Assembly (NCBI RefSeq): GCF_000688455.1
Contig: NZ_JIAL01000001.1
Coordinates: 3,317,001 to 3,381,000 of the forward strand
Length of the DNA: 64,000 bases
Source of the DNA: Pseudacidobacterium ailaaui
Lineage (GTDB): Bacteria > Acidobacteriota > Terriglobia > Terriglobales > Acidobacteriaceae
Direction: 5' to 3'
Positions 11,150-40,557 of the stretch are shown here, piece by piece. The notes beneath the pieces were generated by a model that was not told where the DNA came from, did no database searches, and was given only the letters and a program-made list of their open reading frames with translations. The first letter of the stretch is position 1, and every line of letters starts with the position of its first letter. Made by a program: the position numbers and the translations under genes.

Positions 11150-11390
11150 CCAGTATCAGTGGCCCATTCCCCGAGGCCAGCCGACAAGTATGCGCACGCG
11201 ATGGCGCTGCGCAGGCCGGTATTCGGACTCTGGGCCTTCTACTGGGCGCCGCTTCCCATTCATCGCTGAACAGTGCGTGGTTGACAGCCAACCGTGCGCT
11301 TTTCGCTCCCATCACCGCTGCGGGACAGTGCCGGAATTGCACCGGCTTCCCGTTTAACAGGGCCAAAGGGCCCTGCACCTGCACGTCTTG
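11150..11390 (-). promoter_or_regulatory. Cobalamin (AdoCbl) riboswitch upstream of metE
   Basis: Read on the minus strand the leader has the hallmarks of the B12 riboswitch in order: 'GGGAAGCCGGTGCAATTCCG' (about 11331-11350), then 'GCACTGTCCCGCAGCGGTGA', a variable arm, 'GAGTCCGAATACCGGCCTGC' (about 11213-11232) and the closing 'GGGCCACTG' (11157-11165), the B12 box. A GGGCCCTTTGGCCCT hairpin opens the element near 11360-11375. The last part lies about 50 bases from the metE start, so it could act by hiding the ribosome site or by termination. Boundaries are approximate; the class call is firm. Confidence 0.92.
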
Positions 11391-11445
11391 AGTCTACACT
11401 GCGCAGCGGCCATTGGTGAGAAGAGAGAGAGATGTTGTGTGTCCT

Positions 11446-20604: not shown

Positions 20605-20708
20605 AGTGTGCCGGGTCCTGCGCGACGCAATCCCGCCAACCCCGCCAGGTCCGGAAGGAAGCAACGGTAACGGGCCAGTGCGTGTGCAGCAGGTTCCCCG
20701 GTGCACTG
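20605..20708 (+). ncRNA. ffs: SRP RNA, small bacterial (4.5S) type
   Basis: The sequence has the invariant apical part of SRP domain IV: 'AGGTCCGGAAGGAAGCAAC' (20647-20665) with the GGAA tetraloop and the asymmetric AGCA bulge bound by Ffh. The ends pair: 'AGTGTGCCGGG' (20605-20615) with 'CCCCGGTGCACT' near 20697-20708, giving a single rod of about 100 bases. SRP RNA activates the Ffh-FtsY GTPases during membrane protein targeting. Exact ends are inferred from the pairing. ftsY is in the divergent operon next door. A run of T after 20708 (GGTTTTTCC) could end it. Confidence 0.92.
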
Positions 20709-34863: not shown

Positions 34864-35002
34864 TGGATGGAGGGGCGCGGAGGTCGTTAAGCTTCAGGAT
34901 AAATTCATAAAAGGTTTCATCTCGGCTTTCACAGTATTAAAAATTTCTCAATGTTATTGGGCAACTTTGGCAAAGGATACGCATTCATAAGTAGTAACAA
35001 AT

Positions 35003-35122
35003 AGAGGCAACTTCACTATGCTGTATCTCTCGCCTAAGTTGTTGAGTTCACCCTTTGCGAATCCGCAGATGCGGAACCTCAGTTGACACTACCCTCAATG
35101 GCTTCCCCTCAAAATTGCCTCT
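35003..35122 (+). ncRNA. Candidate structured RNA / leader upstream of pgeF
   Basis: No coding frame is present. Closing stem: AGAGGCAA (35003-35010) with TTGCCTCT (35115-35122), eight perfect pairs. Inner stem: AAGTTGTTGAG (35036-35046) with CTCAATGGCTT (35094-35104), eleven pairs including three G-U. Apical hairpin: TCCGC-AGAT-GCGGA (35062-35075). A textbook terminator follows seven bases later (35129-35154) and the pgeF ATG comes 23 bases after that. It may be a stand-alone small RNA or a leader that controls pgeF by termination. I do not recognise a known family. A weak promoter (TTGGCA at 34967-34972, TAAGTA near 34988) may drive it. Confidence 0.6.
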
Positions 35123-35128
35123 GAACAG

Positions 35129-35154
35129 AAGGCCCGCAACCAGCGGGCCTTTTG
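35129..35154 (+). terminator. Rho-independent terminator after the structured RNA
   Basis: AAGGCCCGC-AACCA-GCGGGCCTT followed by TT and GC: a nine-pair stem with a five-base loop and a short U-run. It ends 23 bases before the pgeF ATG, leaving almost no room for a promoter between them. Confidence 0.85.
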
Positions 35155-35176
35155 CTTTGGTGCATCAGCACAGATA

Positions 35177-36085
35177 ATGAGTGATATGCCACCTGAGGAT
35201 TCCCACTGTTCAGCCATGCTCCAAGTCGTGACATGCCCGCAATGGGTTGACCTGCCCTGGCTTCTGCACGGATTCAGTACCCGAGTCGGAGGAACAACGA
35301 CCGTCTATGGTCCTAAGAGGAAGGCTGGAGAAATGAACCTGGGCTTTACCGCAGAGGACGACAGAAAAAACGTGCTGGCCAACCGGGAGAAGTTCCTCCA
35401 TGCCCTCAGCAAAGGGAAGGCACCCACGCCTTCTTTGGTTACTTTAAAGCAGATCCACTCTTCTGTTGTGCATGTGGTGGACCGCAGCCATACCGCCGAA
35501 GATCCCCGGTTACAGGGCGATGGCATGATGACCTCCGAGAGGGGGATCGTACTTGGCATTCAGACAGCAGACTGCATTCCGGTTTTGGTCATAGACCAAA
35601 ACCGGCGCGCTGTGGCTGCGTTCCATGCCGGCTGGCGTGGTACGCTGAAACGCATTGTCGAAGTGGGAATCGGGCGGATGAGGGCGGAATTTGGCAGCGA
35701 GCCGGAAGACCTCTCTGCAGCCATCGGACCGGGCATCCGCCAATGCTGCTATGCCGTTGGGGAAGAGGTACGCGAGCAGTTCTTCTCGCAGTTCGTCTAT
35801 GCGGACCAACTGTTCCGCGAAGTCTCAACTACTGACCCAGTAAAAGACAAGTACCCTCTTCTCTTTCTGACGGCCCGTCCTCCCGGGCATGGCCATTCCA
35901 GCCAGGTACTGTACCTGGACCTGATTGAGGCCAACCGCAGACAATTGATGGATGCGGGGGTCCGCGAGGATGCAATCTTTGTGCAGGGGGACTGCACGTG
36001 TTGCCAAAGGGACCGCTATTTCTCCTATCGGGCCGAGCATGGTCAGACAGGCCGCATGTTGTCAGCCGTGGGACTTAGGGGGTAG
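35177..36085 (+). CDS. pgeF: PgeF/YfiH-family protein (LACC1-like)
   Basis: 302 residues; Met14 (ATG 35216) is an alternative start. Family of peptidoglycan editing factor PgeF, also described as a multi-substrate purine nucleoside phosphorylase/adenosine deaminase (human LACC1 homologue). The metal triad is intact: H94 ('TLKQIHSSVV'), C133 ('QTADCIPVLV') and H150 ('AFHAGWRGT'). 'SAAIGPGIRQCCYAVGEEV' and the C-terminal 'DCTCCQRDRYFSYRAE' are also typical. It lies just past the structured RNA and terminator, so expression probably depends on read-through or on a promoter inside the RNA. Confidence 0.9.
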   Translation: MSDMPPEDSHCSAMLQVVTCPQWVDLPWLLHGFSTRVGGTTTVYGPKRKAGEMNLGFTAEDDRKNVLANREKFLHALSKGKAPTPSLVTLKQIHSSVVHVVDRSHTAEDPRLQGDGMMTSERGIVLGIQTADCIPVLVIDQNRRAVAAFHAGWRGTLKRIVEVGIGRMRAEFGSEPEDLSAAIGPGIRQCCYAVGEEVREQFFSQFVYADQLFREVSTTDPVKDKYPLLFLTARPPGHGHSSQVLYLDLIEANRRQLMDAGVREDAIFVQGDCTCCQRDRYFSYRAEHGQTGRMLSAVGLRG

Positions 36086-38000: not shown

Positions 38001-39035
38001 TTGGAACTGACTGTCATTATTCCGGCACGGAATGAACAGGACTGCCTGGAGGCGTGCCTTCAGTCGCTGGTTTCGCAGTCCGATGCAGATTGGACGCTGG
38101 GACGGGACTGGGAGGTGCTGGTTGTAGATGACCACTCCACCGACCTTACCCGAAAAATTGCCGCCGCTTTTTCCGATGTGACTGTGCTCGACGCTCCCCC
38201 ATCGCCACCGGGGTGGACTGGAAAGGCCAACGCCGTCTGGACAGGGGCAAAACGGGCGGCGGGCCGCTGGCTGCTGTTCACCGACGCTGATACCCTGCAC
38301 GAACCCGGAAATTTGCGGCGTGCCCTGCATGAAGCTGAAAAACACAAGGTGGCCATGCTCTCCTATTCTCCGCGCCAGATTGTGCAAGGTTTCTGGCAGA
38401 GGGCGCTGATGCCTTTGGTATTCAGCGAGCTGGCCCTGGCCTATCCCCCGGCAAAGGTCTCAGACCCTGAGTCGCGCGTGGCTGCGGCCAATGGACAGTT
38501 CCTGTTGATAGAGCGCGAGGCCTATTTCCAGATCGGCGGTCATGAGGCAGTTGCCCGATCTCTGCTGGAAGACGTTGAACTTGCCTCTATGGCAAAACGC
38601 CGCAAGCTCGGTCTCCGCTTCCGCTATGCTCCGGATGCGGTCAGCACGCGCATGTATCGGGGCTTTCGGCAGATGTGTGAAGGCTGGACCAAGAACCTCG
38701 CCCTGCTCTTTGGCAACCCGCTGTCGACGGCCGCATGGAAGCTGCTGGACATTCTCCTTCTGTTTGGGCTGCCGGTGCTTGCCTGGTATGTTCCATGGCC
38801 GGTCAGTATGACCACTCCGTGGCTGACTGCGCGGCTGTTGCTCCTTCTTGTTTGGTTTCGGACGCTGTGGCGCTTTTACCGCCGTGTGATGAAATCAAAT
38901 TTTCCTTTTGTCGATTGCATGCTGAGCGTTTTCGGACTGCCTCTGTTCATCTGGTTACTGTGGCGGAGCTGGTTCGGGCACACGGTCGCGAAACGCGTAG
39001 TCTGGAAAGGCAGAGATTACGCAGGCGGAGGATAG
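38001..39035 (+). CDS. Glycosyltransferase family 2, membrane-bound
   Basis: 344 residues from TTG 38001, which follows CGGAG; another TTG at 37944 would overlap the divergent gene. GT2 fold: 'LTVIIPARNEQDCLEACLQS', 'VLVVDDHSTDLTRKIA', DxD 'LFTDADTLHEPGNLRRAL' and 'LEDVELASMAKRRKLGLRFR', with three membrane helices at the C-terminus (about 240-330). 'SPPGWTGKANAVWTGAKRA' is typical of the HpnB/CrtQ-like branch, so a hopanoid or carotenoid glycosylation role is possible but not shown. It lies 74 bases before the pterin genes on the same strand. Confidence 0.88.
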   Translation: MELTVIIPARNEQDCLEACLQSLVSQSDADWTLGRDWEVLVVDDHSTDLTRKIAAAFSDVTVLDAPPSPPGWTGKANAVWTGAKRAAGRWLLFTDADTLHEPGNLRRALHEAEKHKVAMLSYSPRQIVQGFWQRALMPLVFSELALAYPPAKVSDPESRVAAANGQFLLIEREAYFQIGGHEAVARSLLEDVELASMAKRRKLGLRFRYAPDAVSTRMYRGFRQMCEGWTKNLALLFGNPLSTAAWKLLDILLLFGLPVLAWYVPWPVSMTTPWLTARLLLLLVWFRTLWRFYRRVMKSNFPFVDCMLSVFGLPLFIWLLWRSWFGHTVAKRVVWKGRDYAGGG

Positions 39036-39109
39036 CCAGTGCACTCGTCACCTGCTCCTGCGGCCTGCGCCGCACACCCAAAAGATATGCTGATGGACGG
39101 TCTGAAACG

Positions 39110-39520
39110 ATGATTTTACTTACCCGAAGGGCAGAGTTCTCCGCCTCGCACTACTACTGGAACGAGGCATGGTCTGATGAAGAAAACCGGCGCGTCTTTG
39201 GCAAGTGTGCGAACAAGAATGGACACGGGCACAACTACACGCTTGAGGTAACCGTGGCTGGCGAAGTTGATGCGGCGACAGGCTTTGTTGTGGACCTGAA
39301 AAAGCTGAAGGACGTTCTGGAGCAGGAAGTTGTCCAGGCCTATGACCATCGGCATTTAAACAAAGAGGTCCCGGAGTTCCGCAACACCATTCCTACCACC
39401 GAGAACATTGCCATCGCGGTATGGCGGCGCCTGGAAGGCAAGGTTCCCGGAGCAAAACTGCACCGCGTGCGCGTTTATGAAATGTCTGACATTTTTGCTG
39501 ATTACTACGGAGAGCCATGA
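39110..39520 (+). CDS. 6-pyruvoyl-tetrahydropterin synthase-like (copy 1)
   Basis: 136 residues from ATG 39110. PTPS/QueD fold enzyme acting on 7,8-dihydroneopterin triphosphate. Zinc ligands H14 ('SASHYYW'), H39 and H41 ('NGHGHNYTLEV'), catalytic C33 ('GKCANK'), 'YDHRHLN' (Asp/His) and 'TTENIAIAVW' (Glu). It overlaps the second PTPS-like gene by four bases and is followed by folE, which makes the substrate. QueD (queuosine) or PTPS (biopterin-like pterin) activity cannot be chosen from the sequence. The upstream frame belongs to the glycosyltransferase region. Confidence 0.9.
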   Translation: MILLTRRAEFSASHYYWNEAWSDEENRRVFGKCANKNGHGHNYTLEVTVAGEVDAATGFVVDLKKLKDVLEQEVVQAYDHRHLNKEVPEFRNTIPTTENIAIAVWRRLEGKVPGAKLHRVRVYEMSDIFADYYGEP

Positions 39521-39924
39521 GGGCCTATTTTTCCCGCCGCTATCGCATCAGCGCCTCACACCGCCTCCACTCTGAAGCATTCAGCCGTGAGAAGAACCGT
39601 GAGCTTTACGGCAAGTGCAACAATCCACATGGGCATGGGCACAATTACGTGATTGAAGTCACCGTGGGGGGACCGGTGGACCCGGAGACCGGCATGGTCT
39701 GCAATCTGGTGGACCTGGACGAGTGCGTGCGCAAAGAGGTCCTGGAGCGTTTCGACCACACAAATCTCAATCTGGACCCTCTTTTTGCGGAGCGTGTGCC
39801 GACCACGGAGAATCTATGTATAGAGATTTACAGGATGCTCAGTAGCGCATTTGATCATGGTGAAATCGTGCGCGTCCGTATTGAGGAAACCAGCAACAAT
39901 TTTTTTGAGTATCCGGCAGTATAG
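39517..39924 (+). CDS. 6-pyruvoyl-tetrahydropterin synthase-like (copy 2)
   Basis: 135 residues; overlaps copy 1 by four bases (ATGA). Zinc ligands H15, H40 and H42 ('ASHRLHSE', 'GHGHNYVIEV'), catalytic C34 ('YGKCNNPHGHGHNY'), 'FDHTNLNLDP' and 'TTENLCIEIY'. The 'GKCNNPHGHGHNY' and 'DPETGMVCNLVDLDE' stretches look closer to animal-type PTPS than to E. coli QueD. The two copies are only loosely alike, suggesting different substrates or a heteromeric enzyme. folE begins 18 bases after the stop. Confidence 0.9.
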   Translation: MRAYFSRRYRISASHRLHSEAFSREKNRELYGKCNNPHGHGHNYVIEVTVGGPVDPETGMVCNLVDLDECVRKEVLERFDHTNLNLDPLFAERVPTTENLCIEIYRMLSSAFDHGEIVRVRIEETSNNFFEYPAV

Positions 39925-39942: not shown

Positions 39943-40557
39943 ATGGCAAAACCAGCAATTCTCCGCAAGGTCCTGGAAACCGACCTGGAACAGGTGTCCA
40001 CACAAGAACTCTACCGCGAGATCCTGCGCCGCTTTGATGAAGATCCCTCTCGCGATGGCCTTATCCGCACTCCCGAGCGCGTGGAGCGGGCCATGTCGTT
40101 CCTGACCAAAGGATACCGGGAAGACCCGGCGGAGATTCTACGTGGTGCGCTCTTCGATGTGGACTATGACGAGATGGTCATAGTCAAGGACATCGAGATG
40201 TTTTCCCTGTGCGAACACCACATGCTGCCTTTTTTTGGAAAAGTCCACGTTGCCTACATTCCCAATGGCAAGGTCATTGGACTGAGCAAGATCCCCCGCC
40301 TGGTCGAAGTCTTTGCCCGCCGTCTGCAGGTGCAGGAGCGCATGACACGTCAGATAGCCGATGCCATTCAGGAGGCAATCGGACCGCAGGGGGTTGGCGT
40401 CGTGATTGAAGCACGGCACCTTTGCATGATGATGCGGGGGGTTGAGAAGCAGCATTCCTCTACGGTAACTTCGGCGATGGTAGGGATCTTTCAGAAGCAG
40501 AACACGCGCAACGAGTTCCTGTCTCTGGTACGCAACCGTGCACAGAACGGCTTCTGA
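39943..40557 (+). CDS. folE: GTP cyclohydrolase I
   Basis: 204 residues. Converts GTP to 7,8-dihydroneopterin triphosphate, the first step of folate, queuosine and biopterin routes. Zinc ligands C90 and H93 ('[14 protein letters not shown]') and C161 ('[13 protein letters not shown]') are present, as are '[20 protein letters not shown]' and '[10 protein letters not shown]'. Type IA enzyme. It follows the two PTPS-like genes by 18 bases, so one transcript makes the substrate and two enzymes that use it. truB follows 33 bases later. Confidence 0.96.

Follow-up and report, generated by a model that had tools for sequence, protein, structure and literature searches.

In Enterobacteriaceae, the gene of the small RNA (sRNA) GlmY is located beside qseEGF and has a sigma54 promoter with upstream binding sites, overlapping a weak sigma70 promoter (PMC6075780). 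CrcZ is a separate unit downstream of cbrB, with a sigma54 promoter activated by CbrB (PMC8871633), and the Qrr RNAs of Vibrionaceae, such as Qrr1, are sigma54-dependent under LuxO (PMC10162802). From Acidobacteria, Acido-1 (RF01686) and Acido-Lenti-1 (RF01687) have been reported as candidate non-coding RNAs (PMC2864571), and in the limited collection of literature that we searched, there was no paper on a characterised regulatory sRNA of Acidobacteriota.

Here, we analyzed a stretch of 64,000 nucleotides of Pseudacidobacterium ailaaui (referred to as the window), with the focus on the 313-nt gap at 34864 to 35176, which is flanked by a DHA2-type pump gene and pgeF. A previous sequence-only reading had described this gap as devoid of genes, which was borne out, as it contains no credible gene. 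Window positions 34963 to 35158 (forward strand) are a stand-alone sRNA gene with its own promoter and terminator, consisting of the promoter (34963 to 34993), a predicted transcript of ca. 165 nt from ca. 34994 (34994 to 35158), and then the terminator. The element is single copy in the genome. We consider it probable that the gene encodes a regulatory sRNA, placed under NtrC/sigma54 control or an ECF-like promoter, that would pair with its targets in trans.

By analogy, the best reading is that the sRNA works like GlmY, CrcZ, or Qrr. As in the case of GlmY (QseF/GlrR, Enterobacteriaceae), the family includes sRNA genes beside NtrC-type two-component genes, with a sigma54 promoter and an overlapping second promoter. 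However, GlmY lies upstream of the regulator genes and the acidobacterial sRNA downstream, the second promoter is sigma70 in GlmY and ECF-like here, and GlmY acts through RapZ and GlmZ. No Rfam match was found here. CrcZ and CrcY (CbrB, Pseudomonadaceae) share with it a gene downstream of an NtrC-type regulator gene, the separate unit, and the sigma54 promoter, but CrcZ antagonises Crc/Hfq, while the acidobacterial RNA is C-rich, comes from another phylum, and has no Rfam match. Qrr (LuxO) is likewise a sigma54-dependent sRNA under an NtrC-family activator, although no quorum-sensing context was seen at the acidobacterial loci and, again, Rfam gave no match. Acido-1 and Acido-Lenti-1 are also reported from Acidobacteria, but the window and 18 members of the family match no Rfam family.

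Distribution and conserved fold of the RNA

In a genome of the same genus, the 176 nt just upstream of pgeF were 74% identical to the window, with the DNA further upstream unmatched, and two more genomes displayed ca. 70% identity. A covariance model built from 11 sequences (R1) matched 194 of the 398 genomes of the same family, Acidobacteriaceae, in 43 of its 79 genera, and a second model (R2) added further genera; among the named carriers are Occallatibacter savannae and a Silvibacterium MAG. Outside Acidobacteriaceae, a class-wide search provided no convincing member (best score of 25.9 bits, versus 48 to 150 for most members), and the limit of the RNA at the family boundary looks real at the search sensitivity used. 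A phage search with the element gave no match. We also discarded a small protein, since the longest frames (22 to 28 amino acids) were absent from other members; across the six member transcripts examined, the longest ORF was 28 amino acids.

Full Rfam scans found no family above the gathering score for the RNA of the window (E up to 10) and no match in 18 other members (E up to 0.05). The sequence-only reading had named no riboswitch class for PgeF, and the scans matched no known riboswitch or leader class. Trp_leader, the best Rfam score (21 of 41 bits), was rejected because it rests on the terminator, as do the weak matches to trp/thr leaders. Acido-1 and Acido-Lenti-1 were unmatched at the same thresholds, and 6S RNA was dismissed given that the RF00013 match sits elsewhere in the genome (G000:C1:1434649-1434839). 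The Qrr, CrcZ, and GlmY families proper, which we take to have Rfam models, were unmatched in the full scans. Judged by these sequence comparisons, the sRNA is a new RNA family, not listed by Rfam, within the broader kind of GlmY, CrcZ, and Qrr. Elsewhere in the window, the Rfam scan detected a cobalamin riboswitch (11197 to 11397, reverse strand, 104.9 bits) and a bacterial small SRP RNA (20609 to 20706, forward strand, 70.9 bits).

The 217 nt initially regarded as the element folded at −75 kcal/mol, compared to −53 in shuffled sequences (z = −5.46), an excess that is largely due to the terminator hairpin and dropped to z = −2.69 once the terminator was removed. The terminator announced as a textbook one just before pgeF proved to be a strong hairpin at 35126 to 35154 (CAGAAGGCCCGC-AACCA-GCGGGCCTTTTG, with a CTTT tail up to 35158, forward strand), where the 41-nt stretch 35120 to 35160 folded at z = −5.35 and 7 of 7 modelled pairs showed two-sided changes, although the U-tract is interrupted (TTTTGCTTT). 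It ends 22 nt 5′ of the pgeF ATG (35177). Short near-exact matches to its sequence (GGCCCGC..GCGGGCCTTTTGC) were widely recurrent in Acidobacteriaceae genomes, as if one terminator type were common to the family.

The three nested helices of the sequence-only reading do form in the window's minimum-energy fold but are not conserved. In a MAFFT alignment of 11 relatives, they were paired in 46.3% of the cells, versus 46.6% after shuffling, and they take in positions 34961 to 34993, marked as promoter by the comparative evidence; they were thus rejected as the conserved structure. When the sequence was folded from the predicted start (34994 to 35160), AGAGGCA (35003 to 35009) paired with TGCCTCT (35116 to 35122) with a probability of 0.92 to 0.98, whereas the value for this stem (P1) was 0.00 with the promoter bases included. 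P1 was formed in silico by the predicted transcripts of 71 of the 80 members (the remaining 9 were without it). Its core (AGAGGC/GCCUCU) is nearly invariant, with five core pairs identical in the 79 distinct members, and its outer pair shows two-sided changes (AU to UG or GC). Inside, the P2 hairpin (TCCGC-AGAT-GCGGA, 35062 to 35075) had two-sided changes in 5 of 5 pairs of the 79-member alignment.

Comparison of the members thus establishes both the RNA family and its fold, namely, an end-closing AGAGGC/GCCUCU stem, a central hairpin, and the terminator hairpin, with strong covariation over 79 members. Pairing of the helices was found in 96 to 97% of the cells of three alignments (43, 38, and 79 distinct sequences), in which 11, 13, and 14 of the 19 pairs, respectively, had two-sided changes; these counts lean towards this structure because the alignments were fitted to it. 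None of 500 shuffles reached any of the covariation measures, and slid controls dropped to 33 to 53% pairing. The unfitted MAFFT alignment (n = 11) gave 95.7% pairing with weak covariation. Most of the covariation was carried by P2 and the terminator hairpin. The conservation and covariation in relatives called for by the sequence-only reading were therefore found, and both were strong, but for a structure other than the one drawn there.

Promoter motifs and the NtrC-type regulator

Conservation begins abruptly at GGCAAC, and the first 30-odd conserved bases resemble a promoter, not RNA. A simple scan for sigma70 promoters upstream of the conserved block found no common position. An NtrC-type sigma54 activator gene was located directly upstream of the sRNA in 26 of the 80 rows (25 distinct loci from 18 genera, one genome's locus being counted twice), ending 108 to 274 nt before the sRNA gene; the members are kin, so this and the other motif and neighbour counts are not independent. 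The protein contains Response_reg, Sigma54_activat, and HTH_8 domains (receiver, sigma54 activation, and Fis-type DNA binding), and a histidine kinase gene adjoins its gene. In these 26 rows, GG-N10-GC was always present at a fixed place (26/26; shuffled mean of 1.4 and maximum of 6), 12 to 32 nt before P1, e.g., CTTGGCACATCACTTGCTTAT. Among the deep-branching members with no NtrC-type gene within 1.5 kb, 11 of 12 had it.

Between the regulator and sRNA genes, we found the palindrome GTGGYAT-N4-ATRCCAC, with no more than 3 mismatches in 19 of the 26 NtrC-adjacent rows (null mean of 0.9 and maximum of 3). In five genomes, the exact palindrome appeared once per genome, every time at the sRNA locus, and it was absent from 10 genomes without that regulator, including that of the window. 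Like the sigma54 motif, the palindrome is a result of direct comparison, and it is predicted to be the binding site of the adjacent regulator. Close regulator homologues (50 to 80% identical) were found only where the gene adjoins the sRNA, the best full-length ones elsewhere being at most 46% identical, no closer than the numerous paralogues. Given the palindrome site counts, the regulator looks dedicated to the sRNA. At locus L076, which has no adjacent regulator gene, GTGCTATTTCGATGCAAT has 3 mismatches to the palindrome ca. 191 nt before P1, the usual distance, and is possibly a decayed binding site.

The NtrC/sigma54-controlled sRNAs are thus matched by the family in the adjacent regulator, GG-N10-GC, and the upstream palindrome (putative site), whereas the window has no adjacent regulator, no palindrome (best candidate with 6 mismatches), and a GG-N10-GC with a poor −12 part. 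Its genome encodes RpoN but not the regulator, with the best homologues 40 to 46% identical, that is, at paralogue level. ECF promoters are typified by AAC at −35 and CGT at −10 (PMC8103513). An arrangement of this kind (AAC at −35 and a CGT/TCT-type −10, 16 to 17 nt apart) was detected as AACNN-N16/17-TC[TCA] in 37 of the 42 members that are neither NtrC-adjacent nor deep-branching, the class to which the window belongs (shuffled mean of 2.1 and maximum of 8), e.g., GCAACC...GACGTCTGA.

The promoter of the window is a hybrid, in which both motifs are present and each is imperfect. The sigma54-type motif, TTGGCAAAGGATACGCAT (34967 to 34984, forward strand), has GG at 34969-34970 and GC at 34981-34982, separated by N10, and its −12 part reads ACGC instead of TTGC; the motif is perhaps a remnant. 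The putative ECF-like motif (34963 to 34987, forward strand) has AAC at 34963-34965 (−35) and TCA at 34985-34987 (−10), the latter weaker than in most members. Both predict a start near 34994, ca. 9 nt 5′ of P1, and from these motifs, the onset of conservation, and the spacing, we infer that transcription starts there. Either sigma54 or an ECF sigma factor may act on this promoter, whose −12 and −10 elements are both poor. In the same-genus sister (L073), GG and GC are 8, not 10, positions apart at the aligned sigma54 position, and its sigma54 promoter may be broken; the promoter scan counted another GG-N10-GC nearby and so calls both motifs in the window and the sister.

The history of promoter and regulator was followed on a tree of pgeF from 44 members, which groups the window with the sister genome. 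ECF-only promoters required at least 5 changes, of which strongly supported branches impose 3, and ca. 7 changes were needed for the regulator label. The pattern suggests that the promoter switch was caused by loss of the regulator, with only two strongly supported independent pairs of regulator versus promoter type, too few for proof. On these comparisons, we lean, with some reserve, towards an undescribed sRNA family with a dedicated NtrC-type activator, whose loss would have been followed repeatedly by a handover from sigma54 to ECF at the same start, via hybrid promoters.

Neighbouring genes and possible mode of action

The neighbours of the sRNA gene change between members. Upstream, there was an NtrC-type gene in 26 rows, an alpha-galactosidase gene in 12, and others elsewhere, while the genes downstream were pgeF, dksA-like, peptidase-like (named from sequence by eye), an Abhydrolase_3 esterase, or a convergent NtrC-like gene. 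Homologues were located 3 to ca. 1,670 nt before pgeF, before other genes, or facing an opposite-strand gene. In genus g33, for instance, the RNA lies between the alpha-galactosidase and esterase genes, and pgeF is elsewhere. In the window, the downstream neighbour, outside the RNA gene, is pgeF (35177 to 36085, forward strand; Cu-oxidase_4 family, PF02578, 235 bits). Further on, two consecutive frames with similar 6-pyruvoyl-tetrahydropterin-synthase-like sequence (38735 to 39924) are followed by a folE-like frame (39943 to 40557), all named by eye.

The sequence-only reading had left two options, a stand-alone sRNA or a leader controlling pgeF by read-through. The varying neighbours, the conserved family, and its own promoter motifs support the former. 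For a leader, with an upstream start and a signal acting on the folded RNA to decide between a stop at the terminator and read-through into pgeF, it could be argued that the terminator ends only ca. 22 nt (window) or ca. 7 nt (sister genome) before pgeF and that the RNA precedes pgeF on the same strand in many members. However, the RNA is away from pgeF in g33 and precedes a dksA-like or peptidase-like gene in other members and a convergent gene in one, P1 is compatible with the terminator, and we saw no conserved alternative pairing able to disrupt the latter. Given the variation in type and strand among the downstream genes, a pgeF leader or riboswitch is not general and was rejected, and we regard it as very unlikely for this locus, although some read-through coupling to pgeF may exist in the genus of the window, where the terminator ends ca. 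7 to 22 nt before the gene. Even less credible, to the point of being negligible, is an ordinary intergenic region in which the terminator serves the upstream DHA2 gene and the remaining structure arose by chance: terminators of this sequence are indeed common across Acidobacteriaceae genomes, but the element is conserved and covaries across dozens of genera, its promoter motifs are conserved, and the upstream genes change between members.

Returning to the stand-alone sRNA, in many lineages, the NtrC-type two-component regulator encoded upstream would bind the palindrome and drive the sRNA from the sigma54 promoter. In lineages that lost the regulator, including that of the window, an ECF-sigma-like promoter would in most cases take over at the same spot, with both motifs kept in the window. 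With its ends joined by the AGAGGC/GCCUCU stem, the RNA would expose a C-/U-rich domain of ca. 105 nt that contains a single hairpin, and the terminator hairpin would close it off. This domain contains 35% C, 29% U, and 21% A. CCTCC was found within the 35 nt preceding the P1 3′ arm in 42 of the 80 members (9.6 expected; maximum of 17), and the window carries TTCCCCTC. Its conserved C-rich stretch GGCTTCCCCT (35100 to 35109, forward strand) is a candidate for pairing with ribosome-binding sites, to which CCTCC is complementary, and pairing in trans is therefore the leading guess. Most likely, the sRNA would pair in this way with mRNAs at their ribosome-binding sites, perhaps aided by Hfq, which is encoded in the genome.

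The main rival to trans pairing is a stand-alone RNA that sequesters or steers a protein (Hfq, a CsrA-like protein, or RNA polymerase), in the manner of CrcZ, RsmY, or 6S. The long closed structure with repeated pyrimidine-rich stretches, the presence of Hfq, and the layout, to which that of CrcZ is the nearest (PMC8871633), speak for such a role. Against it, a true 6S gene exists at another site of the genome, and the A-rich repeats used by known Hfq decoys contrast with this C-rich domain (35% C and 21% A). On balance, we consider a protein-binding role unlikely.

Regulation by pairing in trans thus remains our preferred reading. The family would form a natural series of one RNA gene that seems to switch sigma factor but keeps its start site and product. 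Being widespread, with a recognisable promoter, activator, and putative binding site, the sRNA would offer a direct entry into sRNA regulation in an abundant soil phylum.
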